A stretch of DNA of 35,476 nucleotides from a virus. Every line of letters begins with the position of its first letter. Position 1 is the first letter of the stretch. The stretch is taken from positions 1 through 35,476 of IMG/VR virus record IMGVR_UViG_3300048050_000025, one strand, 5' to 3'. Under the pieces are notes generated by a model that searched no databases, was not told the DNA's origin, and saw only the letters and a program-made list of their open reading frames with translations. Positions 9,629-35,476 of the stretch are shown piece by piece. A program made the position numbers and the translations under genes.

Positions 9629-9636
9629 CCACCCTC

Positions 9637-19837: not shown

Positions 19838-20188
19838 TGCATTGATGGTGATTTGATCACACGATTGGCATGGGATGATAAAAAACTTATGAATTTTATG
19901 AAAGTCAAAATTCAATCCATGCCAGCGCCTTCTCTTTTTGATAATACTCCGTCGCTTCCCCAAGGGGCTATAGTTCTACCCAACAACCAGTTCTTCTTAA
20001 GTGCGCATAAGAAAGACCCTGGACAGAGACCCTTATGTGGATGTATGGCTGCAAAGGATATTGGAGAATACAACACATGCCCACATTTGTGTGAATACTG
20101 CTATGCAAATACGACAAAGCAGTTAGCTTTAGATAATTGGAAACGTCACCAGCAGAATAAGAATGCTGATACAATAACAGGAAAGTGA
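19838..20188 (+). pseudogene. DUF1848 protein, C-terminal fragment (5' truncated)
   Basis: The plus-strand frame from CIDGDLITRL to the TGA at 20186 matches the end of DUF1848 proteins. The family's cysteine signature is present: CGCMAAKDIGEYNTCPHLCE then YCYAN. That C-terminal cluster resembles the iron-sulfur site of radical SAM enzymes. The intact family is about 300 residues; only about 115 remain, and a TAA at 19835 precedes the homology. A TTG at 19853 is the first possible start. The stop lies two bases before the helicase ATG, so the intact gene was probably the first member of the helicase operon. The missing part is replaced by antisense phage sequence. Loss of the N-terminal domain almost certainly inactivates it. 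Confidence 0.75.
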
Positions 20189-20190
20189 AG

Positions 20191-23100
20191 ATGCCCAACT
20201 TTATAGAAACATTCAAAACAAACAGAAATTTCTCGTTCTTGGGAATGAGACATACAGCTATAGCACTACTTCCGCAAGACCGGACGAAACGCAATAAACT
20301 GTATCAAGACCTTGAGCGGGGTAAAGGCATATTGGATGACGACGATCACCTCAATATGTATTTGCATAGCTTTGGCAAGATGCATAAAGCGAAATTGGAT
20401 GTTGCTTTTAACAGCCTTTCTAATATATCCGACATTTTCTCAGAAGAAGTGGAAATATACGATTGGGGATGTGGACAAGGTACTGCTTCTGCTTGTTTGT
20501 TGGATTTTCTTAAATCGAAGAGAATAACTCCAAACATCAAACAATTCTGTATGGTTGAACCGTCGTCTGAAGCTGTTAAGAGAGCGACGCAGGTTATAGA
20601 ATGTTTCAACTCCAATTATACGATCAATTCCATAACTAAGGACTTCGACCATTTAACCCCAGAAGATTTCAAGACATCAGATGTTAAGAAAGTACACCTT
20701 TTCAGTAATATTCTTGATGTTGAAGCTTTTGACCTGGCACAGTTTATCCATCTATTTCAACAGTTATTTGGCGGCGATAATTATTTTATATGCGTTGGTC
20801 CTTTTTATAGCAATAATAGACGCGTAGATGAGTTCGTTGCAGCGACTGCTCCTGATACGATATATGCCACCATGAATAAAGAGCGTGGGGCATGGCAGGG
20901 AGATTGGACTATTTCCATGCGTATTTTCCTTAAACACTTTGACCGTATTGAAACAGTCGAGAATATCAGGAAACGAATAGAAGATTCTCATAAAAAAGAA
21001 CAATTCTTTGCTGGCTACATTCTCGATGCAGTTGCTGAAGAATATGGTAAGTCGGACAAAGAGTCTCTGTCCGAAAGTTTATACCATGCTCTGTCTGCTT
21101 TCGATGTAAAGTCAAATATACCACTTGACTATAACACCAATGCAGATTCGAAACTTGCAGTTCTTGCCAATATCATTTCGCGAGGTCTTCCCACAAAGGC
21201 TCCAATCTTACTGGAGAACACGTTTGCTGACATATTCCAAATCTCATCAAAACCTAAAGAGGGTTTTGTACTTGATTATAAGTCCACTCACAAAATATCT
21301 GCACAAGAAATTTATGAAGCACTCCATATTATAGACCCTCGTTTCAATGTGGACTTTTATAATGGTGATATGCTTGACAGTTCTTTTGAGAAGAGCTTCA
21401 TAGATTCATATCTAAAGGGTTCGCAAAGCGAATATCTTATACAACTGTTTGAACCTCAACGCCCACTTTCTTCCATAGTGGACATTCCTGACAGGAAATT
21501 CAGCAAAGACCAGCGTGTGGATTTTGCCTTAGAGATTCCCTACGGAGATGCTCGGACAGGTTTTATACTCGAAATGGACGGAAGACTGTACCACTCTAAC
21601 ATATTCCGTCGTATCAACGATGAGCGTCGTGATCGAATTTCATTGCAAGGTGGATGGGATACATATCGCATTGAACAACTAAATAACATGTCGTTCATGC
21701 AAAATTGGGAGTCCGACGCTACTTCTGTGGACTATCTGAAATACATCAAATCCAATTTCGCCAAGCATCTGACCGGGGAATGGTTGAATACTTTGCAAAT
21801 CGTTCTTGCTCCATTAACAATAGCAAGAGTTGAACGTATGCTGGTGGAAGCTATGATGTCAGATGCACTCAGCCTCAATGCTGATGTCTGGAATATTGCG
21901 GTTGTTGAGCGTGATATTCCATGTGCTGCATTAGCGATAAAAGATCTGAAAGAAAAGTATGAACATATCTGTGAACTTGCTGGTTCTAATGATAAGATGC
22001 CAAAGATTCATCTGAGCATAGTAACAACTGACGAATTTAAGAATTCACCTTTGCATTTGGGCCATGATGTGGTTACACAAATGCCAAAAGAACATTTCGA
22101 CCTTTGTGTGGATATATCCATGCTGCTTCGAGACAATATCGATGCTCTGCCTTTGAACATTGATACTGATACAGTATATCTGATTCGCTCTTCACATTAC
22201 AAGAAACGGGAGCGTACAATTTGTGCAGCTGAGAATATTCAATATCCACCTTTGGTAAAGAAGGGCGGAACGGGATCTTATGTGAACATTGAAGAAAGAG
22301 AGAAAGTCCTAATTTACTTTCTATGGGATATTTTCCGTAAATTATCATTCCGCCCTGGACAGCTGCCTATACTTAACCATACTTTAGCAGACAAAACCAC
22401 CATTGGGCTGCTCCCCACTGGAGGTGGCAAGTCTTTGACTTATCAGTTGTCTTGTATGTTACAGCCTGGTGTATCAATAATTGTTGATCCATTGGTATCG
22501 CTTATGGTAGATCAAGTGAGAGGATTGAGGGAAGCCAAGATTGATGCCTGTGACTGTGTGAATAGCGGTATGGATGCTAAGGAGAAAGCCACAAAACTGA
22601 ACCGACTTCAAAATGGCGCAGTATTATTCATGTTGCTTTCTCCAGAGAGATTCATGATGGAGAATTTCCGTTCAAGTCTGTTGACTATGACAGAGAAGAA
22701 TCATGTTTGCTTTTCTTATGGCATCATTGATGAAGTACATTGTGTGTCAGAATGGGGACACGATTTCCGGACTTCATATCTGCATCTCGGACGAAACATG
22801 ATTAACTTTATGAAAACTAAGTCAAGACGTCCTCTTTCAATAATCGGGCTGACTGCAACAGCGTCCTTTGATGTCCTTGCCGATGTCGAACGAGAACTTA
22901 CGCTTGGAGGTAATCTAACAATGGATAGCGAAACTATAGTTCGTCCAGATTCCGATTCACGTCCAGAACTAACATATCGTATTATAGAAATACAATCAAA
23001 TTTTGATGAACTGAGAGATCCGAATCAACAGTTTTTGTTGAAGGCTAAATCTGATTGGGATATAAAAGATATTGTCGCCACTGCAAAGAAAAACAGAATG

Positions 23101-25398
23101 TACGAACTGTTGCATGAAATTCCTGCAGACATCGAGTATCTTAACCAAAATGAAACGGACAAAACAAATGTCGCTCATATCGAAGATTTCTCAGCCAAGA
23201 ACTTCTATGTTGCAGACAGCGAACAGCATTACAATAACGCAGGAATAATATTCTGCCCACATGCTCATGGAACTTTTGGAGTTGAAGACAATGTATGGGG
23301 AACCAGAATGGGTATCTCAACAGAACTCAGAGAGCATGAACAAGAGGTGGCAATGGGTACTTTTGTTGGTGGAGACCGACCTTCCGGGGATATGAAGCTA
23401 TTTAACGAAAACACTCTGAATTTGATGGTTGCTACTAAAGCTTTTGGTATGGGGATTGACAAGCCGAACATCCGATTCGCCATAAACTTCAGCCACCCAT
23501 CATCTATAGAAAGCTATGTTCAGGAAGCAGGCCGTGGTGGGCGTGATAAGAAACATGCTATATCGTATATTCTCTATGATCCAACAGAGTATATAGAATT
23601 GACAATTGATAAAGTTAATGACATTCGATATTTAATGGGCCAAGATGACCCAACGTGGCTCGAAAGCTACATTAATAAATTCGTTCTCGCGGATGATCTT
23701 TCTGCTTTATGCAGACAAAACGGAGCTTCAAAAGAAGTGACTGACAGAATACTTGATATTATCAGGAAGCAAGGCTTCCTTGACAATGTTGATAAGGATA
23801 TTACCTTATGGTTCCACAATAATTCTTTCCGTGGTCTATATAAGGAAAAAGTTATTCTTGTGGAGCTGACAGATCGAATTATCAATGCCAAACATACACA
23901 TTTGACAGAAGTGCAAGCCAGACTAAGAGATGAGACAGGTAATGAAGATATTTGCCTAAAGGTTGACACGCGAAAGAATGCGGTCAAGATCCTTTCTGAG
24001 GAAGACAATAATAGGCAATATGGTTATATATTCCTTGAAAACCTACATTCCACATACAACTACCTTGGATTTGAATATACAGTTTGTTCATACATCTCTA
24101 ACTGCTTGATTCAGATTCTTCAGACGCATGAAGACCATTCAGCCCAGGCTCTCATCAAACCTTTGGAAGGCGAAGACAACATCACAGAAGGTATATATCA
24201 AGCCATGGCACATGCTGATGAAGATGGTATAGCAAGCGTTATTGTTTCGTGGGAAAACAACGTGCAACAAGATCCGGACGGCTTTGAGGCTTTCATTAAG
24301 AAGGAAATCTTCACAATATCTACAGATCAAGATTGGCAAAATATCAATGAGGATAGATATGGCAAGTTAGATTTAAAGAAAATTGGAGATTTTGATGAAT
24401 TGATAGCAAAGATTGCGAAATGCTCCGGTGACTCCAGATGGCTTCGAAATCATGCGAATGAGGCTATTTATAAAAAACTTAGAATGGCTTTCTGCAAGAA
24501 ACGTGACAAAGATGACACAGACAAAGCCATATATCGCATGTGTTGCATAGGATTGGTTGATGATGTGACGATTGATTACCTTTCCCAGACTTACGAACTC
24601 AAAATACATAGGCATACTGATGAAGTGTTTAAACAGTTCATGCTAGATTTCTTTCGTAAGTATTACTCTTTGGAACAAGCTCAGAAAAAAGTGGATGAAA
24701 TAGACGCACAGCCTGGACGCAACTACTTAGATCGATGCTTGGGATACCTGACTGCCTTCGTTTACGAAAACCTTGAAAAGAAGCGGTACCGTGCCATCGA
24801 GGATATGCGCATTGCTTGTGAAGACAGCATTATAGAGCGACAGACAAATGGTAATGATGAATGGCTGAAAGAATTTATCCATCTTTACTTTAATTCAAAA
24901 TATGCTCGAACTGGCTACGAAGTGAACGGGAAACCGTATTCGCTGAAAGATGACACTGACATCGAAGGAAAAGACGGTTTTGATGTGGTAAAGAAATATA
25001 TTGAAGTTGTTGACCCACAGCACGATAATTCTGGTAGTGAAGTGGATAATATAAAACACCTGTATGGTGCTACTCTTCTTTGCCTTAGAGCTCATCCTGA
25101 TAATGCGGCACTTCAGCTCTTACTGGCCTATTGTATTACTTTCTTAGGTGCAGGAAACAACCAGACTTTAAAGAATAACGCGAACAATAATTATATCGAG
25201 GGCTTTATGAGTTTATACCATAAGGGCAGTACACAAGTTTGGAATGATATAGATAGCTTTACGTCATTTCTCAAGGCAAAAGTCCGAAGTGAGGATAAGT
25301 TTATCAAGGAAAATTTGATTGAGAACGGCAAGAAAACAATTACGCTGTTCGCTCATGAGGCAAAAATAAATGAGATTACTGAGAAATATCTAAAATAA
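20191..25398 (+). CDS. Giant RecQ-type helicase with methyltransferase-like and Vsr/DUF559-like nuclease domains
   Basis: A 1735-residue protein; the ATG at 20191 is chosen over a GTG at 20185. Residues about 85-230 look like a class I SAM-dependent methyltransferase (IYDWGCGQGTAS at 89-100, then FCMVEPSSEA). Residues about 440-480 show a PD-(D/E)XK/Vsr-type pattern (Asp444 in QRVDFAL, then LEMDGRLYH with Glu461, Asp463 and His468, then RRDRISLQGGWDTYRIE), as in DUF559 endonucleases. Residues about 715-1140 are a RecQ-family SF2 helicase. Its Walker A is PTGGGKS (742-748), its DEVH box is 847-850, motif III is GLTATAS, motif V is TKAFGMGID and motif VI is QEAGRGGRD (1111-1119). The last 600 residues are helical and unrecognised. 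The combination suggests DNA recognition and processing in anti-phage defence, but the methyltransferase may be inactive. It is followed five bases later by the coiled-coil gene. Confidence 0.85.
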   Translation: MPNFIETFKTNRNFSFLGMRHTAIALLPQDRTKRNKLYQDLERGKGILDDDDHLNMYLHSFGKMHKAKLDVAFNSLSNISDIFSEEVEIYDWGCGQGTASACLLDFLKSKRITPNIKQFCMVEPSSEAVKRATQVIECFNSNYTINSITKDFDHLTPEDFKTSDVKKVHLFSNILDVEAFDLAQFIHLFQQLFGGDNYFICVGPFYSNNRRVDEFVAATAPDTIYATMNKERGAWQGDWTISMRIFLKHFDRIETVENIRKRIEDSHKKEQFFAGYILDAVAEEYGKSDKESLSESLYHALSAFDVKSNIPLDYNTNADSKLAVLANIISRGLPTKAPILLENTFADIFQISSKPKEGFVLDYKSTHKISAQEIYEALHIIDPRFNVDFYNGDMLDSSFEKSFIDSYLKGSQSEYLIQLFEPQRPLSSIVDIPDRKFSKDQRVDFALEIPYGDARTGFILEMDGRLYHSNIFRRINDERRDRISLQGGWDTYRIEQLNNMSFMQNWESDATSVDYLKYIKSNFAKHLTGEWLNTLQIVLAPLTIARVERMLVEAMMSDALSLNADVWNIAVVERDIPCAALAIKDLKEKYEHICELAGSNDKMPKIHLSIVTTDEFKNSPLHLGHDVVTQMPKEHFDLCVDISMLLRDNIDALPLNIDTDTVYLIRSSHYKKRERTICAAENIQYPPLVKKGGTGSYVNIEEREKVLIYFLWDIFRKLSFRPGQLPILNHTLADKTTIGLLPTGGGKSLTYQLSCMLQPGVSIIVDPLVSLMVDQVRGLREAKIDACDCVNSGMDAKEKATKLNRLQNGAVLFMLLSPERFMMENFRSSLLTMTEKNHVCFSYGIIDEVHCVSEWGHDFRTSYLHLGRNMINFMKTKSRRPLSIIGLTATASFDVLADVERELTLGGNLTMDSETIVRPDSDSRPELTYRIIEIQSNFDELRDPNQQFLLKAKSDWDIKDIVATAKKNRMYELLHEIPADIEYLNQNETDKTNVAHIEDFSAKNFYVADSEQHYNNAGIIFCPHAHGTFGVEDNVWGTRMGISTELREHEQEVAMGTFVGGDRPSGDMKLFNENTLNLMVATKAFGMGIDKPNIRFAINFSHPSSIESYVQEAGRGGRDKKHAISYILYDPTEYIELTIDKVNDIRYLMGQDDPTWLESYINKFVLADDLSALCRQNGASKEVTDRILDIIRKQGFLDNVDKDITLWFHNNSFRGLYKEKVILVELTDRIINAKHTHLTEVQARLRDETGNEDICLKVDTRKNAVKILSEEDNNRQYGYIFLENLHSTYNYLGFEYTVCSYISNCLIQILQTHEDHSAQALIKPLEGEDNITEGIYQAMAHADEDGIASVIVSWENNVQQDPDGFEAFIKKEIFTISTDQDWQNINEDRYGKLDLKKIGDFDELIAKIAKCSGDSRWLRNHANEAIYKKLRMAFCKKRDKDDTDKAIYRMCCIGLVDDVTIDYLSQTYELKIHRHTDEVFKQFMLDFFRKYYSLEQAQKKVDEIDAQPGRNYLDRCLGYLTAFVYENLEKKRYRAIEDMRIACEDSIIERQTNGNDEWLKEFIHLYFNSKYARTGYEVNGKPYSLKDDTDIEGKDGFDVVKKYIEVVDPQHDNSGSEVDNIKHLYGATLLCLRAHPDNAALQLLLAYCITFLGAGNNQTLKNNANNNYIEGFMSLYHKGSTQVWNDIDSFTSFLKAKVRSEDKFIKENLIENGKKTITLFAHEAKINEITEKYLK

Positions 25399-25403
25399 AA
25401 AAT

Positions 25404-26195
25404 ATGGCTTACGATATTAATGCTACATTGGAAAGGTTGGAACAGAACCTAAAGCAACTTGATTCCGCAAGGGAACAGGTTCAGAAAACTGTTCGCGCGA
25501 GTAACGAACTGCAAGTAACTGTTGCTGGATATGTCGCTTCCATCAAAGAACTTGTGGGAGAAATAATAGAATGGGAGAAACAATTAAAAGGTGCACAAGT
25601 CGGCTTTTCAGAAGAAATGCAAAATACTTTGTCAGAGTTGAAGACCTCCTGCGATAAGATTACAGACACATTTGCTTCCTCTGTAGAGAGCTCTTTAAAG
25701 AAATTTTCTGAACAGAACACACTCCTTGAAAAAAGAGTGAAAGACTTAAGTACTCTTCGTGAAGAGATTAAATCTGCCACTAAAGAAATTCAATCTATTA
25801 AAGAAACGCTTTCAGACATTTCCAAAGATTTGACGGATTCACAGAAGAAACAAGATGAGACACTAGAGCACATTAATCAGCAAGTATCCGAGCTACCTGG
25901 AACAATTAAAGGCTATGCCGATGGCATCAAAGAACATGCGAATAGTTTAAAAGATGATTTGAAAAGAATCCTAGACGAAACACATTCTATTATACGTGCC
26001 ATAGACAAAAAATTGGATGCCCTGACACAAGCCGTAGCAACTCTTCAAAATACAAGTAATGGTATTCAGCAATCCTGTGATAATATAAAATCTGATATTT
26101 TGTCTTCCAATAATGCGATTAAGAAATCAATTAGCATTAATCGCTGGATTTTAATCGCTGGAGTTATTATTCTCATTGTCCTACATTTTGTCTAA
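25404..26195 (+). CDS. Coiled-coil protein with C-terminal transmembrane anchor
   Basis: A 263-residue protein. Residues 5-240 are almost wholly heptad-patterned helix (LERLEQNLKQLDSAREQVQK and many later repeats). The last 18 residues, RWILIAGVIILIVLHFV, form a membrane segment ending at the C-terminus, so it is tail-anchored with the coiled coil in the cytoplasm. No signal peptide or enzymatic motif is seen. It starts five bases after the helicase stop, so the pair is almost certainly co-transcribed. It could tether the helicase to the membrane or act as a membrane effector; both are inference. Similar shapes occur in several defence systems, but I do not recognise the family. Confidence 0.75.
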   Translation: MAYDINATLERLEQNLKQLDSAREQVQKTVRASNELQVTVAGYVASIKELVGEIIEWEKQLKGAQVGFSEEMQNTLSELKTSCDKITDTFASSVESSLKKFSEQNTLLEKRVKDLSTLREEIKSATKEIQSIKETLSDISKDLTDSQKKQDETLEHINQQVSELPGTIKGYADGIKEHANSLKDDLKRILDETHSIIRAIDKKLDALTQAVATLQNTSNGIQQSCDNIKSDILSSNNAIKKSISINRWILIAGVIILIVLHFV

Positions 26196-26323: not shown

Positions 26324-26791
26324 ATGGAATTACAAAGATTTGACAAAGAAAGACTTGAAGATGGACATGCATATTCTGGTTGGTGATATATCTCAGATGG
26401 AGAAGTTATTCAACAAGGTAGTGGTACAAAGTATTTTGATGGTTATTATGTTCGTGGCAATTTCCATGATGGAATTTTAAATGATCCTGGAATAATAAGT
26501 CATGATTACTATATGACAAGTGGCCAATTTAAAAACCATGTATTAAATGGGGGGGGATTAAGCATTAACCGTGGTACACTAACCGAATTCGGATATTATA
26601 ATAATGGAGAATTGAGAAACAATTTGATAGATTATGTATATTGGTATGCTACAAGACTTCAAGAGTCTGGGCGGGGTAACGAGAATATGCTTAATCTTGA
26701 AGTTATATCAGCAGTGGAAACCTATTTCCATTTGACAAAAAATATTGCAAGTTTTCTGTTCAGTATTTTGGTATTGTTCATAAATCTATGA
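26324..26791 (+). pseudogene. MORN-like repeat protein interrupted by an in-frame stop
   Basis: One frame runs from ATG 26324 to TGA 26789-26791 but is broken at codon 21 by a TGA (26384-26386) directly after a TGG Trp codon. Both sides show the Gly/Tyr/Phe spacing of MORN repeats (GHAYSGW before; DGYYVRGNFHDG and TEFGYYNNGELRNN after), so the frame was once continuous. A run of eight G residues at 26549-26556 lies in the gene and could slip. The last residues are hydrophobic (FLFSILVLFINL), perhaps a membrane segment. The end of the gene overlaps the first AbiE operator. A downstream ATG at 26513 could give a 92-residue piece. The intact function is unknown. Confidence 0.6.
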
Positions 26792-26793
26792 AC
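26776..26793. promoter_or_regulatory. Upstream AbiEi-type operator (palindrome O1)
   Basis: GTTCATAAATCTATGAAC has 7-base inverted arms around AATC. It matches the second copy at 26854-26871 in 16 of 18 positions. It lies 24 bases upstream of the -33 element of the AbiE promoter. AbiEi antitoxins are known to repress their own promoters by binding inverted repeats. Confidence 0.7.
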
Positions 26794-26817
26794 TATCATT
26801 ATTTTTTAAACAAATAG

Positions 26818-26849
26818 TTTGGAGGTTCTAAAAATGTTCACTACATTTG
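26818..26849 (+). promoter_or_regulatory. Promoter of the AbiE-PP2C operon
   Basis: TTTG at 26818-26821, a 20-base spacer, then TACATTTG at 26842-26849: a perfect match to the Bacteroidetes promoter consensus. Transcription should begin near 26855-26858, inside the second palindrome, about 38 bases before the antitoxin ATG. Confidence 0.85.
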
Positions 26850-26853
26850 CAGT

Positions 26854-26871
26854 GTTCATAAATTCATGAAC
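26854..26871. promoter_or_regulatory. Downstream AbiEi-type operator (palindrome O2)
   Basis: GTTCATAAATTCATGAAC has 6-base inverted arms. It covers the predicted transcription start, so a bound protein would block initiation. Together with O1, 78 bases away centre to centre, it could allow cooperative or looping repression. Confidence 0.75.
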
Positions 26872-26893
26872 AAATATTTAAAAATGAACAGAT

Positions 26894-27877
26894 ATGGTAA
26901 ATGAAAGGGAATTATCTTTAGAAGCCACTGCGAATTTAAAGAGTTTAACTCGACGTGATGACATCACCGTGAAACCTGCTAGTAAGGGAAATCACGATGT
27001 GGACATCAACATTGGTGACATAAAAATGTCTGGCGAAATCAAAAGCTTTGTAACTAAGGCTAACTTTAACCAGGTGATTCTCCAATTACAAAAGATAAAA
27101 AAGGATGGCTCTGCACCTGTACTATTGATTGCTGGTTATATTTCCCCTCAACAAATGATGAAATTTGTAGAGGAAGGATTTAATGTATTGGACAATGCTG
27201 GCAACTGCTATATCAACATTCCACCATTATATATATACATTACAGGGCAGAAACAGGACAAGCCCAAAGAGGCTGAAACGAAAGTGTTCAGTGAATCTGC
27301 GATAAAACTTATTTTCTATTTCCTGCTAGACAAGGCAAATATAGGAAAAACATATAGAAAAATTGCAGAAGAAACTGGATACTCTCTTGGAACCATTAAA
27401 AATGTTATTGAGGATATGATCCGACACCATCATATTATAAAAACTCCTAAAGGAAGAGTTCTGATGGATTGGAGAAAATTACTTAATGAATGGCAAGTGA
27501 CATATAACCAGTCTTTAAAACCAAAATTGTTCTTGAAGAAGATGAGACTTGGAGGTCCTGAACTTAGACGAAATTGGCAGGATATAAAATTACCAAAGAA
27601 CTCTTATTGGGGTGGCGAAAGCGGTGCCAATCTTACTGATGGATATCTAACTCCAGAGATACTAACGATCTACACGGATGGAGATAGTGTTGATTTGATT
27701 AAGACGGCAAAGATGTTACCCTCTTCTGATGGCGACATTCTTGTTTACAAGAAATTCTGGACAGGAGAAGCGGATAGTAAAATGGTCCCAAAAATATTAA
27801 CCTATGCAGATTTAATGGGAACGACAGACAGCCGCTGTCTTGAAGCTGCCAAAAGAATCATCGATGATGAAAAATAG
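26894..27877 (+). CDS. Type IV toxin-antitoxin antitoxin, AbiEi family
   Basis: A 327-residue protein. The N-terminal half contains GNHDVDINIG and MSGEIKSF (a D...ExK-like pattern), then LIAGYISPQQMMKFVEEGFN and VLDNAGNCYIN, the signature I associate with the longer AbiEi family (AbiEi_2). A winged helix at about 133-190 (TYRKIAEETGYSLGTIKNVI) should bind DNA. The C-terminal part has YWGGESGANLTDGYLTPEIL and ends LTYADLMGTTDSRCLEAAKR, also typical. AbiEi proteins neutralise the AbiEii nucleotidyltransferase without direct binding and repress their own operon. Two palindromes flank its promoter, matching that. The stop lies 14 bases inside the toxin gene. The nuclease-like residues in the first half may be structural only. 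Confidence 0.9.
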   Translation: MVNERELSLEATANLKSLTRRDDITVKPASKGNHDVDINIGDIKMSGEIKSFVTKANFNQVILQLQKIKKDGSAPVLLIAGYISPQQMMKFVEEGFNVLDNAGNCYINIPPLYIYITGQKQDKPKEAETKVFSESAIKLIFYFLLDKANIGKTYRKIAEETGYSLGTIKNVIEDMIRHHHIIKTPKGRVLMDWRKLLNEWQVTYNQSLKPKLFLKKMRLGGPELRRNWQDIKLPKNSYWGGESGANLTDGYLTPEILTIYTDGDSVDLIKTAKMLPSSDGDILVYKKFWTGEADSKMVPKILTYADLMGTTDSRCLEAAKRIIDDEK

Positions 27878-28751
27878 CCTAAGTAAAAAAGAACTGGAGA
27901 ATGATGCCTTATATGAGACTCTCAAGGCTCTTAGCGACTGCATTACAAGTATAGGACTGAAACTCTATGTAGTAGGTGCTACGGCTAGAGATATCATGAT
28001 GAAGTTGCTTGATGAGTATCCTTCAAAACGCAAAACAAGAGATCTCGATGTGGCTATTGCCTTGTCTGATTGGTCGCAATTCGATAATCTTAGCGAAATT
28101 CTTCAAAATAACCACTTCAGAAAGGCTCCTGCTAATCAAAAATTCTATTACGAAGGAGAATATCATGATAATGATTACGAGGTAGATATTGTTCCCTTTG
28201 GTGATATTGCCGAAGAGAATGAAACCTTAGTTTGGCCTCCCGAATATGAGTTGGAGATGTCGGTCAAATGCTTTACTGATGTAATGGACCATTCTATTGC
28301 GGTATCTATCAACAACTCGTTTGACGTAAACATCGCGACATTGGCAGGACAGTTCTTTATTAAGCTGGATTCCTACATGGACAGACACACCAAAAATCAT
28401 AAAGATGCCGATGATATGTTTTTCATTCTTGAAAAATATTATGTCTCCAAACTACTTGATAGCGATGTGATTCCTGATGACGTAACCTTAGAAGGAGATA
28501 AGGAAATCATTTGGGGCTCTCAATGGTTAGCAAGCGAAATCAAGCACATACTGAGCAATGAACACCTTGCCGATTACTCTGATATGATAAAAACAGAACT
28601 TGATAAAGGAACTGAAAGCGACCTTATAAAAGACTTCATCAAATTATATGGTGATGAAGAAGATGATGCCTATGATGTCAGCTTGAGTATCTGGACAAAT
28701 ATATACGATATTCTAAACAAAGAAATTGAGGAAAGAAATGAAGATAAGTGA
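27864..28751 (+). CDS. Nucleotidyltransferase toxin, AbiEii/AbiGii family
   Basis: A 295-residue protein; the ATG at 27864 overlaps the antitoxin stop (ATGATGAAAAATAG) and is preferred to an upstream TTG. The nucleotidyltransferase core is seen in VVGATARDIMM (38-46) and TRDLDVAIA (58-66), with metal-binding aspartates, and a third aspartate in YEVDIVPFG (Asp108). The middle (FFIKLDSYMDRHTKNHKDAD) matches the AbiEii lysine/aspartate region. Such toxins transfer nucleotides to an RNA or protein target (the related MenT toxins modify tRNA acceptor ends) and stop growth during phage infection. All core residues seem intact. The stop is inside the start of the PP2C gene, so the three genes are translationally coupled. 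Confidence 0.88.
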   Translation: MMKNSLSKKELENDALYETLKALSDCITSIGLKLYVVGATARDIMMKLLDEYPSKRKTRDLDVAIALSDWSQFDNLSEILQNNHFRKAPANQKFYYEGEYHDNDYEVDIVPFGDIAEENETLVWPPEYELEMSVKCFTDVMDHSIAVSINNSFDVNIATLAGQFFIKLDSYMDRHTKNHKDADDMFFILEKYYVSKLLDSDVIPDDVTLEGDKEIIWGSQWLASEIKHILSNEHLADYSDMIKTELDKGTESDLIKDFIKLYGDEEDDAYDVSLSIWTNIYDILNKEIEERNEDK

Positions 28752-29373
28752 TTTTTCCATCGGAAGTTCAGATACCAATGAAGATTATCTTCTGTATAGG
28801 AATATGGGTATTAATGGCTATGTCATTGCCCTAGCCGATGGAATGGGAGGATTATCTTATGGTGATATAGCTGCACGCTTAGCATGTGAAGCCGCTGTAG
28901 AATATATTGTCAACAACTACAAGGGTTTTCATTCTGAAACAAGAATGTTGAAGGATGCTCTAAAAACAGCTGACAATGCGATTGCAACAAAAGGACTTGC
29001 AGAGTACAAATGCCCAATGGGTACAACAATAGCATTAGCAATTGTTTCTGATTACCAGATGTTCTATACATGGCAGGGAAATGTGCGCATCTACCTTAAG
29101 AATGATAATGGACTTTCGATATTAACTTCTGACCACATATTAGATGTGGGTTATGGTCACACGCGAGTTACCAGATGCATAAAAGGCACAGGTTTACGTG
29201 AAAATATACCAGTAAGAGTTGCTAAACTATCTCGTAATGACAAAGTATTCTTCTGCACCGATGGTTTCTACAATATTGCAGAATCTATGCTGAGCAATAA
29301 ATCCATAACTGAGATTAAGAAGGCAATCATCAATCCTGATGACGACGTTTCACTAATCCAGGTTAATATTTAA
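28738..29373 (+). CDS. PP2C-family Ser/Thr protein phosphatase
   Basis: A 211-residue protein starting at ATG 28738, overlapping the toxin gene by 14 bases; AGGAAAG lies just upstream. Metal-binding PP2C motifs are present: ALADGMGGLSYGD (32-44), FCTDGFYN and DDDVSLIQV near the end. The Thr-Asn-Glu-Asp (TNEDYLLY) near residue 13 matches the family's N-terminal acidic site. It is a minimal single-domain enzyme with no kinase partner in the window. Position as third gene of the AbiE operon suggests it acts on the toxin, the antitoxin or a host protein phosphorylated during infection. That link is inference. Confidence 0.85.
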   Translation: MKISDFSIGSSDTNEDYLLYRNMGINGYVIALADGMGGLSYGDIAARLACEAAVEYIVNNYKGFHSETRMLKDALKTADNAIATKGLAEYKCPMGTTIALAIVSDYQMFYTWQGNVRIYLKNDNGLSILTSDHILDVGYGHTRVTRCIKGTGLRENIPVRVAKLSRNDKVFFCTDGFYNIAESMLSNKSITEIKKAIINPDDDVSLIQVNI

Positions 29374-29374
29374 G

Positions 29375-29429
29375 GTAAAATCATGTAAATGTCTCTTAAT
29401 TGAGATTTGGAACTTTTTATACATTTTAC
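29375..29429 (+). terminator. Structured 3' end of the AbiE-PP2C transcript
   Basis: Directly after the PP2C stop, GTAAAAT (29375-29381) pairs with ATTTTAC (29423-29429), with an inner TGTA/TACA and a TCTC/GAGA hairpin followed by ACTTTTTAT. The T-run is inside the outer stem, so it is an imperfect intrinsic terminator. Nothing else was recognised from 29430 to 29530. Confidence 0.4.
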
Positions 29430-29534
29430 ACCCTACTATTGAGTTCTTATTTCGTCATCTTATCGAGTAACGGGATAAAAAACAAATCAAAGTCCGAACA
29501 GATTAGCATTCTTGTTAATCATTAGTATTATTTT

Positions 29535-29765
29535 CCCACCCAAGCGAAGCGTCTTTAAACAGTTTGTCTGAGAGACTTCGCTGACTTAGAGGATTTTCAT
29601 TCCTCTGCGCATCAAAGACACTCAGTAAAAGGCCAAACACGAAACGACTTTCCACTACTGACAGCAAGAATGTGATGACCTAAACGACCATCACAATTAT
29701 CTTGCTATCTGTTGTTACAAGTCCATTCGTCAAAGAAGTTTGGCAGGCTGTTTATGACTGCTTCA
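29535..29765. ncRNA. Highly self-complementary non-coding segment: candidate structured RNA or transfer origin
   Basis: No usable ORF is present on either strand. The paired segments are AGCGAAG/CTTCGCT (29543-29549 with 29576-29582), AGAGGA/TCCTCT (29588-29593 with 29601-29606) and TCAGTA/TACTGA (29622-29627 with 29656-29661). A nested hairpin pairs AGCAAGA/TCTTGCT (29663-29669 with 29700-29706), enclosing GTGATG/CATCAC (29672-29677 with 29689-29694). A long-range pairing joins GCCAAAC/GTTTGGC (29632-29638 with 29738-29744). GTCTTT (29551-29556), in the loop of the first stem, pairs with AAAGAC (29614-29619) outside it, giving a possible pseudoknot. Such density is far above what chance suggests. 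It could be a folded RNA on either strand, or a single-stranded-DNA element such as an oriT or single-strand origin, given the primase next to it. Confidence 0.55.
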
Positions 29766-29830
29766 CTTCCCACCCTGTTTGGGAATAGTTCATTAATAAA
29801 ATAAATTCTTCTCAATAGGATATATTTTGC

Positions 29831-30076
29831 TTGTCTTACTTGTCTTTGCTGTCATGATTCTCTATAATTTAGTGTAATATATTGATTATAAATAATATAT
29901 ATCAATATGTGATTATGACAAGATTTCTATTATTAATGACAAAAGTATGATTTTTATGACAAAGCTTAAAAAGTGAGCGAATAGTTTCCGATCAAATTGT
30001 GACAAGCGATGACAGCATTTGACTAAAGGGAAAATAGTTAATTCATTGATTTTCATATAAAAGACAAGTAAGACAA
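29831..30076. repeat. Iteron-like origin candidate: phased TGACAA repeats inside a 17-bp inverted repeat
   Basis: TTGTCTTACTTGTCTTT (29831-29847) is repeated in perfect inverse at 30060-30076. Between them lies AT-rich DNA with four TGACAA copies starting at 29916, 29937, 29957 and 30000 (spacings 21, 20 and 43, multiples of about two helical turns) and a TGACAG at 30010. The arms themselves contain further GACAA units. Phased repeats, an AT-rich core and an adjacent primase-ATPase gene are the standard make-up of a replication origin of P4-like or NBU-like elements. Confidence 0.6.
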
Positions 30077-30119
30077 ACAAGACAAAGAAATAGTGGTTTT
30101 ATATGAATAAATTATTTTT

Positions 30120-30160
30120 TAAAGAAAAACTGCCACACAACTTCACAGCTACATGGCAGT
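30120..30160 (-). terminator. Rho-independent terminator of the primase operon
   Basis: On the minus strand ACTGCCA pairs with TGGCAGT (30160-30154 and 30135-30129) and is followed by TTTTTCTTT. It lies 35 bases after the primase stop and separates that transcript from the iteron region. Confidence 0.7.
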
Positions 30161-30194
30161 AAAAATCTATGTTGATATGATTTTCCTATGTTTA

Positions 30195-33100
30195 TTATTC
30201 TTCTGGAGTTTCAGTGTTCCCCAATTCAAGATTAATTTCAAAGGTCTCTGCCAACAACTGGTAATCGAAACAATACGACCTTTGTTGAACACTCTTCTTT
30301 ATTGGTTCATTTACTCCATTGTGATGCTCATAATCAATAACCTGTACTCCCTTTTTGAAGACATGATAGGTCATTCTCTGTTCTCCAAGAAAACATTTGC
30401 TATTCTCCAGATAATACTTAAGTGTTTCTTCAGGTAAGATTTTATCTCCTATTTTGTGGCAATTCTGTTTGTATAACATGAAGATTCTGGTCTTTTGAAG
30501 ATAAAGGACTTTTCTCGGTTCATTCCAGTGTATATCTTTGAATCGATCAGAATGGAAACGGGCAAGGACACGTATTTTGAAATCTCCGTCTTCAATGATT
30601 TCTCCTTCACTGACAAGGAACTGAACAACACGCCAGAAGGCTCCAATTTCATCGGAGACTCTGCATTCGGCATTCTGCTTTCTGATGCCTTCTACCGTGA
30701 TGTCAAACATTTCTTTGTAAGAAAGAGGAACATCTATTGACTTTTCAAGACAACGATAAGCAGTAAGTGGTATTGCCCAGTTCATCACAATCCTATCCAT
30801 GACAGGAATATCTATAAACTTATCATTTACGTCTTTGCATGTGGAATGGAATGTATCGAAAAAAGTGGTCGCTATTTCTTTGCGTTTGGCCAATATACCA
30901 ACCGTTAAGTGTGTCATTCCTTTTGAACGCATTTGAAGCAAATGCTGATAGGACGCTTTTTCTTCTGTATTAAATTCAGATTTGGAGAAAGACAGAAAAA
31001 TAAGGCGGCTGAACAAGGCTATATCTGCCGTTGGCATTTCCTGTCCAGAAAGGATAATACCTGCATCCACAGCCGTAGTTTCCTTTTTCTTATCTAAATC
31101 CATATTCATACGGGTGCGGCCTGTTCCATCCCACATTCCTTTAAGGAATTCAATCTTCAATGGATCAACTCCATTCTTATATTCGTCAATATGTACAAGA
31201 CCGTCTGAGACAGCTGCTACGGTATCGTTCAATGCGGGAATAGTCGAATTCTGCATATTTGGGGGAATATTTTCTATCATAAAAAACGACAGCAGCGTAT
31301 GTCCCAATTCGGTCTTGCCAGAGCCTTTGGGTCCGAACAAGTTTAAAATGGGGAATGAACGAGTAGTCATCGTAATAATATCACGGAATAAGGTGGCCAG
31401 GTAGAAGCAGAAGGCTATTTTCCCATTATTGCCGAAGACTTTAAATATTTGTGCAGAGAAATCTCTTAATGGCGTTGTGGAAAAATTGAGGTGAACAAAA
31501 CGCCTTTCAAACTTGAATAAGTCTATTTTATCTTTGTATATCTTTGAATAGGCAGGCAAATAATAATTCCCTTTTTCTCCTAAACGAACGATGCCATAGT
31601 CATCCACCGGAATGAAACGTCCATCGTAGAAGACTCCGTTCCCAAAAGCATAGAATTCTTTTCGGTTCCATCCAAGTTGCTTGACTTCTATCGCAGTCTC
31701 CGTATTTTCATACAGATAGCATTTAAGTTTTGTCAATTCCTTATCACCTGCTTTCCAGATAAAATTTCCAAGACTTTCTATCTTCTGTTTGAACTTTTGC
31801 AAAGAAATAAGGTCCTCTTGGCGCATTTCCACTAATTCTTCTACTCCGAGTTCATTTCTGAAGATATAAATGCGTTTGGCCATAATGGAATCTTTGATAT
31901 GAAAGAGCGGCTTCATGGTGAAGTTGGACCATTCATAAATACCATTTTTCTCCGAAGAAGAAAAATATTTACCATGTTCGATCCAAAAGCCATACTTCTT
32001 GTTCAGGTCTATTTCATGCTTTTCATTACTGCTTTTGTCTTTTTGTTCACAAGCATATTCTATGGCTTTCTTCCAGATTACTTTCGACTTGTTATATTTG
32101 GTAAGAGAATTGATATACAGGGAGACCTTAGTATCATCATCTATGAGAGAAAGCAGATAGGCCAACTGTTTGATGACGTCGCTTTTCTGTTCCGTGTTTT
32201 CGCATAAGGGAAATAATTTATCGGCCATCCAAAGCACATAATCGACTTCTTCGGTTTTTCTGAAAATATCCATATCCGTATAATAGGAATCTGGATCTTT
32301 CTTTCCCTGATGTTCATCATCCGGTATTTCTTTGATGAAAACAGACAAATGATGTTCCATAGCCGATTTCCCTGCTTTCATAACTGTCTCAATTCCAGTG
32401 CCGAATGATTGGCCATCTTTGGGTGGATCATCATCGGGAAGAAAACAAACTTTGCTCGCTGCTCTTGATATCAGTTGAAACTGCTCATCAGTCCATGCCG
32501 AACCGAGAGATGCCATCGTGTTTTCCAGACCGAGGAGATGCATTCTCATGCAATCGGGTGCACCTTCTACAAGATATAACTTCTTATCTTTACCGGCTGC
32601 ACGCCATGCTACATCAAGGCCGAACAATGAATTACGCTTGCTATAAAGAAGAGATTCCTTACTATTAAGGTATTTGGGCTGTATATCATCTAAAGCACGT
32701 GCAGTAAATCCAATAACTTTCTGAAAGCGGGAACGTATGGGAATGACAATACGATTCTGATAGAAATCGTAACCACTTTTATTAATCAGTCCCAATTTCA
32801 TCATCAAGTCTTTTTGATTGGGAAGAACCGCGAGAGCCTTTCCGTCTTTGGGAGCATAACCTATTTCAATCTCATCACAGTATTTTTTACTCCACCTTGC
32901 ATAGGTATATTTCTGAGCTTCTTTGTTGAGCAAAAACTGTTCTCTGTAAAACTTGTGTACGGATTCATTCACAATCTGCAGAGATTCTATTTCTAATCGT
33001 TGCTTCTTCTCTTCAATGCCTTCTTCCTGTTCATCTACCTCTATTCCATATTTACGACCAAGCCATTTGACCGCTTCGGGATACGTCATATTCTCGTGTT

Positions 33101-33317
33101 CTATCAAAAAAGTGATAGCATCACCTCCTTTCTTACAACCAAAACAATAAAACATGCTTCGATGAGGAGTCACGGTAAACGAAGGTGTACATTCTTCATG
33201 GAACGGACAAAAGCCCTTAAAGAACCTGCCACTTCTGTGAAGCGTGACAAATTCTCCGATTACATCTTCGATTTTGGTTGCATCGAGAATTCTTTCAATT
33301 ATAGAACGAGAAATCAT
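30195..33317 (-). CDS. Multidomain CHC2 primase-Toprim-ATPase (P4 alpha/NBU primase-like replication protein)
   Basis: A 1040-residue protein. The N-terminal DnaG-type zinc ribbon is complete (Cys37, His40, Cys58, Cys61; GFCPFHEECTPSF and FYCFGCKKGGDAI). The DnaG catalytic core follows (YQNRIVIPIRSR, PKYLNSKES), with the Toprim motif VEGAPDC at 250-256 and acidic FLPDDDPP at 293-299. After a linker comes an ATPase domain with Walker A FGPKGSGKTE (661-670) and Walker B HIDEYKNG (709-716), then ILSGQEMPTAD, which looks like sensor 1. The layout is that of self-sufficient element replication proteins that prime and unwind at their own origin; an iteron array lies just past its 3' end. It is downstream of an excisionase-like gene, as in NBU-type mobilizable elements. 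No frameshift was seen. Confidence 0.9.
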   Translation of the reverse strand: MISRSIIERILDATKIEDVIGEFVTLHRSGRFFKGFCPFHEECTPSFTVTPHRSMFYCFGCKKGGDAITFLIEHENMTYPEAVKWLGRKYGIEVDEQEEGIEEKKQRLEIESLQIVNESVHKFYREQFLLNKEAQKYTYARWSKKYCDEIEIGYAPKDGKALAVLPNQKDLMMKLGLINKSGYDFYQNRIVIPIRSRFQKVIGFTARALDDIQPKYLNSKESLLYSKRNSLFGLDVAWRAAGKDKKLYLVEGAPDCMRMHLLGLENTMASLGSAWTDEQFQLISRAASKVCFLPDDDPPKDGQSFGTGIETVMKAGKSAMEHHLSVFIKEIPDDEHQGKKDPDSYYTDMDIFRKTEEVDYVLWMADKLFPLCENTEQKSDVIKQLAYLLSLIDDDTKVSLYINSLTKYNKSKVIWKKAIEYACEQKDKSSNEKHEIDLNKKYGFWIEHGKYFSSSEKNGIYEWSNFTMKPLFHIKDSIMAKRIYIFRNELGVEELVEMRQEDLISLQKFKQKIESLGNFIWKAGDKELTKLKCYLYENTETAIEVKQLGWNRKEFYAFGNGVFYDGRFIPVDDYGIVRLGEKGNYYLPAYSKIYKDKIDLFKFERRFVHLNFSTTPLRDFSAQIFKVFGNNGKIAFCFYLATLFRDIITMTTRSFPILNLFGPKGSGKTELGHTLLSFFMIENIPPNMQNSTIPALNDTVAAVSDGLVHIDEYKNGVDPLKIEFLKGMWDGTGRTRMNMDLDKKKETTAVDAGIILSGQEMPTADIALFSRLIFLSFSKSEFNTEEKASYQHLLQMRSKGMTHLTVGILAKRKEIATTFFDTFHSTCKDVNDKFIDIPVMDRIVMNWAIPLTAYRCLEKSIDVPLSYKEMFDITVEGIRKQNAECRVSDEIGAFWRVVQFLVSEGEIIEDGDFKIRVLARFHSDRFKDIHWNEPRKVLYLQKTRIFMLYKQNCHKIGDKILPEETLKYYLENSKCFLGEQRMTYHVFKKGVQVIDYEHHNGVNEPIKKSVQQRSYCFDYQLLAETFEINLELGNTETPEE

Positions 33318-33423
33318 ATCATCATAAGATTCAAATATTCAACAAATAAATTGCCCTGACTGATATTCTTCACAGGGTACCAGCCAGGGACTTGATTAAC
33401 TACCTTGCTATTTAGAGGGATAG

Positions 33424-33723
33424 TTAAATATTTCTGAGACCATCAACAAACTCTGATTTGAGAATATACCAGCAGCGACCGACTTTATGGGCAGGCAGGA
33501 GGCCGTTCTCAATACGTCTGCGTATGGTGCATTCCTTCCTACCAAGCATGCTCGCTACGTCTCTAACGGTATATACCGTGTCAGAGGCATTGAGTATGAC
33601 CTTGCTACTGGAATCAGAATTCATATTCAGTTCCTTCATCGAGCGGTTCCTTACCAAGGCACCACCGGGGAATAAGTTCTCTCCACTTTCTTTCATTTCC
33701 TTTGGTTTTACATAATTGTTCAT
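33424..33723 (-). CDS. Excisionase-like helix-turn-helix protein
   Basis: A 99-residue protein. The C-terminal half is a MerR/excisionase-type winged HTH: VYTVRDVASMLGRKECTIRR followed by RIENGLLPAHKVGRCWYILK. The N-terminal 45 residues are polar and may be disordered; the ATG at 33723 is used, with later Met codons as alternatives. In Bacteroides mobilizable units similar small proteins act in excision or control of the primase gene that follows. It lies 106 bases upstream of the primase ATG on the same strand, with its first 110 bases overlapping the previous gene. Confidence 0.75.
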   Translation of the reverse strand: MNNYVKPKEMKESGENLFPGGALVRNRSMKELNMNSDSSSKVILNASDTVYTVRDVASMLGRKECTIRRRIENGLLPAHKVGRCWYILKSEFVDGLRNI

Positions 33724-33946
33724 GTTTTTCTAATTTTTCCACAACAATAACCACCACTTGCTTGTAATAATTATAGCTGTAATGTACATACCTTCCGATG
33801 GTGCGGCCGTAAGTTGTATTATACCTACTGGCTAAAATTCCAAAACTGTTTCTATACTGCAATGGAAGTATTCCCACTTTTACTTGTCCTGGAACTGATT
33901 TTTGAATCCAACCGGACATGTTCTGAATTGATTGTAATTTACTCAT
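33614..33946 (-). CDS. Small protein of unknown function overlapping the HTH gene
   Basis: A 110-residue frame starting MSKLQSIQNMSGWIQKSVPG, with a plausible folded stretch (ILPLQYRNSFGILASRYNTT followed by YGRTIGRYVHYSYNYYKQVV) up to about residue 75. The last 36 residues are encoded by the same DNA as the start of the HTH gene in another frame, so either the two overlap by 110 bases or one start is later. It is the first gene of the presumed excision/primase operon. No family is recognised. Confidence 0.45.
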   Translation of the reverse strand: MSKLQSIQNMSGWIQKSVPGQVKVGILPLQYRNSFGILASRYNTTYGRTIGRYVHYSYNYYKQVVVIVVEKLEKHEQLCKTKGNERKWRELIPRWCLGKEPLDEGTEYEF

Positions 33947-33993
33947 AATCTAACTGTTTAAAGTTGTTATATATGGCTTATTACAATACAAAA

Positions 33994-34025
33994 AATCGAA
34001 AAAAGCACCAAGCCTATTTTCGATT
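33994..34025. repeat. Inverted repeat upstream of the excision/primase operon
   Basis: AATCGAAAA pairs with TTTTCGATT across 14 bases. On the minus strand it is followed by TTTTTTG, so it could be a terminator or attenuator before the ATG at 33946, or an operator. Confidence 0.5.
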
Positions 34026-34409
34026 GTATATTAAAATGATATATCAAGCAAGAATTCTTCAATCCCCTTATCATTTTTGATGATTACTATTCGAAATCTC
34101 TATAACCTCTTCAATCAGATCTAGTGGAATCTATATTAAAGTGATACTTTAGGCGTTCTCGAGAATTTCTTGCTACAAAAATATACTGAAAAAATGGGAA
34201 TCTTAAAAGAATTTCATTCTAAAACTACTTACTTACTAACATTTTAACGCTATTGAGCGTTTTCTAAAGGGAATGACGGTGTGGTCAGATGATTGGAGAG
34301 TATAAAAAGAGTGATGTAATAACATTCAAAATGATTAAGTGCTCAGCAATTTTTCTTCTTTTAGAGGACGTATAATTATAGCAACTTGATACATAGTATT
34401 TAATCACTA

Positions 34410-34449
34410 AAATTGCACATAATCATTGCTATCTGATTTTGTGCAATTT
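34410..34449. repeat. Perfect 10-bp inverted repeat
   Basis: AAATTGCACA (34410-34419) and TGTGCAATTT (34440-34449) are exact inverse copies 20 bases apart. The spacing of arm centres is about three helical turns, which fits protein binding on one face better than an RNA hairpin. Confidence 0.6.
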
Positions 34450-34480
34450 CAAATAATATCAATCATAATTGATAATTAGG

Positions 34481-34513
34481 TACATAATCCGGATCATATC
34501 GCCGGAATATGTA
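34481..34513. repeat. Recombinase-core-like dyad flanked by direct repeats
   Basis: TACATAATCCGG (34481-34492) and CCGGAATATGTA (34502-34513) are inverted with one mismatch around a 9-base spacer. AATTAGGT flanks both sides. Arms of about 12 bases with a short spacer resemble a tyrosine-recombinase crossover site, but an operator is equally possible. Confidence 0.4.
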
Positions 34514-34858
34514 AATTAGGTGCTTTTACTCATTAGAGAGTGCACATTTTACAATACCATTTTATCCGAAGCCTGTATTAAAAAAGTATCTTGAGTAGAC
34601 AATTGTTCATAATTTCAACAGAAATATATATAAAAGTATTGCAAATACGCATACAAAATAAAAAGATTTGATACAAACGGTTGAGGAATGGAAGTATAAC
34701 CAAAAGTATAAAATCACCAAATATTCTCATGTATATTTGGCTGAGTACGAATAAAAGATTATTGTACATAAATACTAATAACAGCACAATTGCAAATACT
34801 AATATCCGATCGATAAAATATACTAATAGTAACACGTGCTGAATACTAAATAGAAATT

Positions 34859-35017
34859 ATGATAACGGTAAATGAATCATTAGCAGAGTATCTTCGGGTG
34901 CTGAAGGAATACCAGGGAAAAAACAACTTTTCTGTGATTCATAGAAAGAGTGTACTTGTGACAACACAGGGTGCGTCAACTGAACTGTGTCATAGGCTAT
35001 CTGCAACCAATCATTAA
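34859..35017 (+). CDS. Small orphan ORF, possible gene remnant
   Basis: A 52-residue frame, MITVNESLAEYLRVLKEYQG then KNNFSVIHRKSVLVTTQGAS. The first 33 residues look like a genuine helical start, and the GC content is higher than in the preceding 900 bases; the tail after that looks random. It may be the 5' end of a gene disrupted by later rearrangement or by the insertion sequence to its right. No family could be assigned. Confidence 0.3.
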   Translation: MITVNESLAEYLRVLKEYQGKNNFSVIHRKSVLVTTQGASTELCHRLSATNH

Positions 35018-35225
35018 GAGTTGGTATGTGTTATCGCTTCCCGGCAATGAGGGTGACATCACGATTTGGTACTCTTCCTATTGGTATTTTAGCTGAATGC
35101 GCTCTAATTTCTTTAGTAATTTCTTGAATCCATAAATATGCAATCAAGATGCTAAAAAGGTAATATGACTCCAATAAATAGTATTATTGTTGTCCGGTAA
35201 AAACGAAAATGCATAAAATATCTAT

Positions 35226-35263
35226 CCGAATTGCCCCTAAAAAGGCAATTCGGAGTTTTCTTT
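35226..35263 (+). terminator. Strong intrinsic terminator at the IS edge
   Basis: CCGAATTGCC (35226-35235) and GGCAATTCGG (35244-35253) form a perfect 10-bp stem with an 8-base loop, followed on the plus strand by AGTTTTCTTT. It lies 27 bases beyond the transposase stop and probably belongs to the insertion sequence, protecting the transposase gene from incoming transcription. Confidence 0.75.
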
Positions 35264-35279
35264 AAAAAAGCAAGCCCCC

Positions 35280-35476
35280 TTAATCAAAGAGTGTTGGTTC
35301 CGGAGGTGATAAATTGGACTGATTAATGATTTTCAGCCATGCTTTTTCTGGATTTTCGCAGAACATATAGAGGTCAATGTAATACATGAGTGTCTGCCTT
35401 ATCATTGTTACAAGATTTGAGAAACTCCATTTCCGTCTAATTCGTTTTCTTATGACAGATAATAACAGGTTTGCAA
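35280..35476 (-). CDS. IS4-type transposase, C-terminal 65 residues (runs off right edge)
   Basis: The minus-strand frame from the right edge to the TAA at 35280-35282 reads ANLLLSVIRKRIRRKWSFSN, continues LVTMIRQTLMYYIDLYMFCE and ends PPEPTLFD. That pattern (leucine-rich start, RRKW.FSN, MIRQ, LMYYI, terminal TLFD) is typical of the C-terminus of IS4-group transposases of Bacteroidetes. The catalytic DDE residues are outside the window. The end of the element may lie near 35187, where TTGTCCGGTAAAAACG looks like a terminal repeat, but the other end is not visible to confirm it. Confidence 0.75.
   Translation of the reverse strand, partial: ANLLLSVIRKRIRRKWSFSNLVTMIRQTLMYYIDLYMFCENPEKAWLKIINQSNLSPPEPTLFD

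Follow-up and report, generated by a model that had tools for sequence, protein, structure and literature searches.

Y-shaped structured elements on Bacteroidales mobile DNA: an uncatalogued family with a possible role in single-strand initiation

Introduction

The sso of rolling-circle plasmids and the primosome-assembly sites are folded single-stranded DNAs at which synthesis of the complementary strand is started. Single-strand promoters are, to our knowledge, known mainly from F-like plasmids, and we know of no Bacteroidales example of the Frpo/ssi kind. On F-like plasmids, the Frpo/ssi elements are long secondary structures formed by non-coding DNA in the vicinity of SSB and establishment genes; a conjugative element can have several of them, and the adjacent operon uses the folded strand as its template (PMC11541004, citing Masai and Arai 1997). 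SSB stimulates Frpo, which precedes SSB genes and imitates a DNA duplex (PMC11541004, the text of which makes no mention of Bacteroid*). Tandem structured repeats termed STAXI, usually two or three in a row, occur near genes for SSB, topoisomerase, antirestriction proteins and integrase; a single-stranded DNA role was also weighed by their authors (PMC2864571). The same survey lists Bacteroidales-1, Bacteroides-1 and Bacteroides-2 as candidate structured RNAs from the bacterial group considered here (PMC2864571).

The element that concerns us lies in a stretch of viral DNA of 35,476 nt, all of which we call the window. It is Y-shaped, it belongs to a family found on Bacteroidales mobile DNA, and we refer to it as the Y element. 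Y elements share with Frpo/ssi the long secondary structure, the non-coding position on conjugative elements near SSB and establishment genes, the occurrence of several copies per element and, in 10 of the 11 contexts beyond the window and L019, the use of the template strand of the adjacent operon as the folded strand. They differ from Frpo/ssi in their Y fold with flanking G-tracts and in that no more than weak or partial matches to a –35/–10 pair were found in the stems, and the window copy differs further in not being upstream of a gene. Membership of the Frpo/ssi class is suggested by analogy, and unproven.

Other described systems are less close. STAXI consists chiefly of a pseudoknot and often carries UUCG tetraloops, whereas Y is a nested three-way structure of ~250 nt, and cmscan found no STAXI match in the window gap (to E 10), in the L160 region (E 1), or in those of L163, L166 and L170 (E 0.1). 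The likeness to sso and primosome-assembly sites, which we compare by description only, is that the window copy adjoins an origin; unlike sso, Y has no rolling-circle Rep identified in its neighborhood. The Rfam entries for Bacteroidales-1 and Bacteroides-1 gave no match in the window gap or in the other element regions scanned. No Rfam entry is given for Bacteroides-2 in PMC2864571, and it therefore falls outside the Rfam comparison.

Fold of the window copy

The window copy occupies part of an 821-base gap (29374–30194) between convergent genes, one for a PP2C-like phosphatase (28726–29373, plus strand), the other for a CHC2 primase/helicase-like protein of the replication module (30195–33317, minus strand; Zn_ribbon_DnaG, DNAG_N and Toprim_2). 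The gap holds no meaningful ORF, the longest that starts with ATG being 47 aa. Within it, positions 29535–29790 have minimum folds of –94.7 kcal/mol (minus strand) and –79.8 kcal/mol (plus strand); compared with dinucleotide-preserving shuffles the z-scores are –5.83 and –5.76, respectively, and none of 200 shuffles was as stable. An earlier note on this DNA had reported dense pairing in a gene-free segment at 29535–29765. The pairing is real, and was understated; the left edge of the segment holds, and the right edge has to be moved slightly outward, the natural limits of the element being ~29535–29775.

The helices of the window copy are parts of a single nested structure of ~80 pairs, and the conserved structure of the Y element is likewise fully nested. 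As modeled on the minus strand (29535–29790, 235.6 bits by the covariance model R2 described below, of which the window copy is itself a training sequence), the folded part is predicted to span 29543–29767, with G-tracts on either side. A closing stem of 8 + 3 + 7 bp forms its base, the 5′ half at 29748–29767 (29767–29760, 29758–29756 and 29754–29748) and the 3′ half at 29543–29562 (29543–29550, 29551–29553 and 29556–29562). The stem opens into two arms. Arm 1 (29632–29744), which corresponds to helices 3–8 of the 26-copy alignment discussed below, begins with a 7-bp helix and continues, beyond a bulge of ~7 nt on the 5′ side only (29737–29731), through helices of 5 + 5 + 5 + 10 + 10 bp; the same one-sided bulge reappears in the predicted folds of other copies. 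Arm 2 (29568–29625) corresponds to helices 9–11 of the same alignment.

Outside the stem stand two pairs of G-tracts, both GGGTGGG on the minus strand, the 5′ pair at 29769–29775 and the 3′ pair at 29535–29541. A paired tract is present on each side in 24 of 25 copies, against a background of 2.2% of 34-nt windows. In the relatives the 5′ tract is mostly GGGTGGG or GGGAGGG, and the 3′ tract is often GGTGTGGGG. Brought together at the base of the stem, the four tracts could possibly form a G-quadruplex clamp.

Covariation

Among 26 distinct copies, 90.4% of the pair cells hold standard pairs, compared with 57.7% when partners are shuffled and 35.9–39.4% when they are slid. Two-sided compensatory change occurs in 80 of the 82 pairs, doubly changed cells number 607 where 188 would be expected, and covariation scores 0.668 compared with 0.185, figures that are somewhat inflated because the alignment was fitted to the model. 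Helices 1 and 2, which make up the closing stem, have two-sided changes in 11/11 and 7/7 pairs; helices 3 and 4, in arm 1, are paired in 98.9% and 98.5% of cells. A plain MAFFT alignment of four copies, made with no model fitting, displays double changes in 19 of 49 predicted pairs. The Y structure is maintained, then, by strong compensatory evolution on Bacteroidales mobile DNA. Compensatory change among homologs was a test that the earlier note had itself set, and the element came through it strongly.

Might the element act in double-stranded form, as a cruciform, or as a set of sites for partition, recombination or regulatory proteins? Measured against shuffles, the two strands are about equal in fold strength, ParA/ParG-like partition genes occur near the plasmid copies, and copies in tandem look like centromere-like arrays, all of which would suit duplex DNA. 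The three-way fold, the one-sided bulge in arm 1 and near-universal compensatory change exceed what binding sites need, however, and the G-tracts are strand-specific and fixed in position. We consider a duplex role improbable.

The Y family and its distribution

Exact DNA patterns, and blastn with the window sequence, turned up nothing convincing in phage, plasmid and IMG/VR collections, and 16-nt matches from these searches were unconfirmed by the covariance model. A first such model, R1, built from the copy in the window and that in its nearest relative, L019, found no further copies in 393 genomes of the order and 399 of a family, with one marginal match (E 0.09). R1 did pick up one diverged copy elsewhere, in G914, a Bacteroides genome that has a tandem pair at this locus, and similarity searches with the G914 region led to more copies in plasmid and fecal-virome records. 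The second model, R2, detected Y elements in 9 of the 150 Bacteroides genomes sampled, including G001 and G914. E-values extend down to 7.5e-33 (G485) in genomes that are neither training copies nor near-identical to one; the still lower value for G804 (1.5e-46) belongs to the same sequence as a training copy, L163. There are matches, too, in plasmid records of Parabacteroides distasonis and Segatella hominis. In 99 genomes of the order, R2 matched G001 only, so most matches sit in Bacteroides. Some of the plasmid records may be fragments of chromosome assemblies; NZ_OY725908, for one, has chromosome-like genes.

Across the family, Y elements are ~200–260 nt long, with a closing stem of ~18 bp that opens into two arms and with paired G-tracts on both sides. 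A locus has one to five copies, often two to five in tandem. A MITE or other dispersed repeat was considered and rejected: the L019 genome has a single copy, and the order and family samples contain no near copies. The earlier note was right to regard the segment as structured and undescribed. It was right, too, to set aside tmRNA, RNase P and 6S RNA: no Rfam 15 family exceeded its gathering threshold in the window gap or in the other element regions scanned. A literature search that had few subscription papers within its scope found no description of the family. The family is a real and previously uncatalogued one, and its structure and its standing as a family we regard as near certain.

At the margins of the family are units that resemble Y and score poorly. 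On pBUN2 there are units with a GGGTGGGTGGG-type tail that are possibly related to Y, two of them at only 20–30 bits by R2, and for that score they were left out of the membership. Further structured units with similar G-tract tails and weak Y-model matches, interspersed with Y units or in their place, occur in L160 (10027–10210), in L163 (12762–12945), and in L164 near 14837, 16268, 19288, 23939 and 27009. A plasmid of Phocaeicola dorei, L200, has the same gene neighborhood and a weak, 20-bit match only; at 7504–8504 in this plasmid, a gene annotated as an AcrIIA9-family Cas9 inhibitor adjoins the SSB gene, and a gene annotated as a DNA methylase is nearby.

Gene context and orientation

Leaving aside the window and L019, there are 11 contexts, and in 10 of them the gene that flanks the Y element 5′ is encoded on the opposite strand, its start codon 244–599 nt away; in eight of these ten the distance is 244–343 nt. 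L166 is the exception. Because the 5′-side gene is divergent, its operon has the folded strand as template, which is the geometry expected, by analogy, of a single-strand promoter of the Frpo type. Most of the divergent operons include a gene for a phosphoribosyltransferase-like protein followed by one for a YpsA/SLOG protein, and SSB and ParA genes are often close by on plasmids and plasmid-like regions. Y arrays thus share the genetic setting of Frpo/ssi, and ten of the eleven contexts share its strand. The window copy shares the setting only by way of the module it has in common with L019, and the template-strand arrangement is lacking in the window, in L019 and in L166, neither of the first two copies being upstream of a divergent gene.

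The Y-like units of pBUN2 are upstream of SSB, PcfK-PcfJ, phosphoribosyltransferase-SLOG and methylase genes. A motif of the form ATACTCTTTT...AAAAGGAAGATT, absent from the window, recurs ~90–170 nt upstream of the start codons of SSB, phosphoribosyltransferase and related genes: in L160 at 9365 and 11179; L164 at 15406, 15487, 18590 and 18671; L170 at 3629; L188 at 7624 and 9328; L189 at 10330; and L190 at 11162. This motif is possibly the promoter proper.

The hairpin-rich, non-coding character of Y, and its presence on mobile DNA, would also befit a phage packaging site or an oriT, the nick site of a relaxase, and the earlier note had included oriT among its suggestions. That suggestion is not supported: the elements number one to five per locus, they keep company with SSB, phosphoribosyltransferase and SLOG genes, and the window copy adjoins an origin. 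On pBUN2, moreover, mobC-relaxase lies at 8980–10715 (relaxase, 9315–10715), tens of kb from the weakly related units at ~102–105 kb. We think it most improbable that Y is either.

The window and its closest relative

Next to the window copy, at 29810–30110 and outside the Y element, is a probable replication origin in which inverted GACAA/TTGTC repeats surround an AT-rich core. A 21-nt inverted repeat (29827–29847/30060–30080) is 95% complementary; the origin-like repeat array of the earlier note is real. Similar inverted arrays come after a number of related primases in other phages. Those downstream of the primases of L005, L006 and L011–L015 are probable origins composed of short inverted repeats, the unit of which varies from phage to phage (TGCAACA, TTACACACA, CAGACACA), round an AT-rich core, TTATCAATAA for example.

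The same note proposed a comparison of homologs beside CHC2 primase genes, an association that proves not to be general. The primase relatives compared were 16 viral and 80 genomic; element and primase occur together only in the window, L019, truncated L018 and G700, and the other relatives, several of which have origin-like arrays downstream, lack Y. Linkage to the operon on the other side of the gap, AbiEi–AbiEii-like–PP2C (26894–29373, plus strand; Pfam AbiEi_2 and PP2C_2, with AbiEii-like assigned by similarity to annotated AbiEii proteins), was rejected as well: in the related operon on a Prevotella nigrescens plasmid, PP2C is followed at once by a convergent gene and the model finds nothing there beyond chance, and the relative in G371 is without a strong fold. 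The three genes are a conserved unit in their own right, present in L147 (5022–7471, same order), L116, the P. nigrescens plasmid and G371; in L019 the PP2C reading frame is broken.

To the left of this operon lies larger cargo. The region 19853–26195 encodes a C-terminal fragment of DUF1848, a DpdF/RecQ-like helicase protein of 1737 aa and a coiled-coil membrane protein that resembles ZorA, together a candidate defense unit. A ParB-like protein is encoded at 17658–19349, within the phage region, and may point to a phage-plasmid lifestyle. The last ~1.5 kb of the window (33946–35476) is nearly free of ORFs, and ends in an open frame of 64 aa that resembles, by eye, the C-terminus of a transposase.

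L019, from a Bacteroides sp. MAG, matches the window from 26775 to 34331 at 93.5% identity, and its contig bears genes that, judged from their sequences and no database search, resemble those of conjugative transfer. The Y segments of the two are about 96–97% identical, and parts of the adjoining origin are visibly less so, at roughly 80% by eye. Ten differences separate the two Y copies: six are at unpaired positions, two convert G.U to G-C, and two convert an A.A mismatch to A-U.

DNA or RNA

Is the working form of Y DNA or RNA? The window/L019 pair suggested a proof, based on G.U pairs, that the modeled strand is RNA; this we rejected when the 26-copy alignment pointed the opposite way. Over all pairs of the 26 copies there are 108 G.T and 63 A.C mismatches, whereas nine tRNAs scored with their own model have 19 and 2 in 189 pairs (Fisher P = 0.013). 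G.T makes up 4.4% of cells in the helices with the best support and 10% in tRNA (P = 0.007), and the ratio of G.T to A.C in those helices alone is not significantly different (P = 0.18). RNA is expected to tolerate G.U and to avoid A.C in every helix; helix 1 behaves in this manner (31 G.T, 3 A.C), and helix 11 does the reverse (5 G.T, 22 A.C). The mismatch counts therefore favor DNA over RNA, in a comparison of related sequences with a model-fitted alignment and a small tRNA control.

A structured non-coding RNA or divergent leader RNA, made from the modeled strand, perhaps out of tandem precursors, and controlling replication or transfer genes, would explain several observations nonetheless. 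The modeled strand is the more stable of the two as RNA in 19 of 26 copies, G.U outnumbers A.C overall as well as in helix 1, and upstream of the window copy, on the minus strand, is a near-consensus Bacteroides-type promoter, TTTT-N21-TACTTTTG, with its –7 box at 29947. The counterpart of that stretch in L019 is conserved only in part, though, and a search of the window copy's 3′ end for an intrinsic terminator gave nothing. Copies in tandem can be a mere 4 nt apart (L188, 9741/9745), leaving no space for individual promoters, and to this must be added the frequency of A.C and the lack of an Rfam match. An RNA is a possible reading, and in our judgment an unlikely one.

Proposed mechanism

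The reading we prefer, and hold to be about as apt to be right as wrong, is that Y is a single-strand DNA initiation or promoter element similar to Frpo/ssi. A single-strand initiation site was among the candidates of the earlier note, and it is now the best supported. The working form would be single-stranded DNA, exposed either when a conjugative element enters its recipient or on the lagging-strand template near an origin. The strand would take up the Y fold, for which a G-quadruplex of the four flanking G-tracts might serve as a clamp, and RNA polymerase or primase would recognize the double-stranded stem and start RNA there. That RNA would be the primer for complementary-strand synthesis and, in the plasmid and ICE copies, would also give early transcription of the neighboring operon. 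Frpo/ssi of plasmid F operates in this way.

The window copy would perform a narrower task. Beyond it come the origin and then the 3′ end of the primase gene, and because there is no gene downstream in the promoter direction, its role would be limited to that of a single-strand initiation site, or else of a passenger in the module shared with the conjugative element L019. Counting against a single-strand promoter, the sole sigma-70-like match inside the stems is weak (29725–29696); a scan of the stems for Bacteroides-type motifs, which covers the promoters of such hosts poorly, gave partial matches only; and neither pBUN2 nor NZ_OY725908 gave a clear indication of the polarity of transfer.

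Significance

Gut Bacteroidales trade plasmids and ICEs heavily, and none of the papers we found describes how the single strands that they take in acquire a primer and have their first genes switched on. The Y family, often arrayed in tandem next to genes for SSB, phosphoribosyltransferase and SLOG proteins, is a testable candidate for this missing priming and expression step. Tentatively, and with rather less confidence than in the initiation reading itself, Y elements might constitute a widespread, undescribed class of single-strand regulators in Bacteroidales, in which tandem Y structures with bipartite G-quadruplex clamps would let priming and transcription of incoming single-stranded plasmid and ICE DNA begin ahead of second-strand synthesis, one such element having been captured by the phage-type module of the window. 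Arrays of Y elements may also mark establishment regions, and these would be worth searching for new anti-defense genes.
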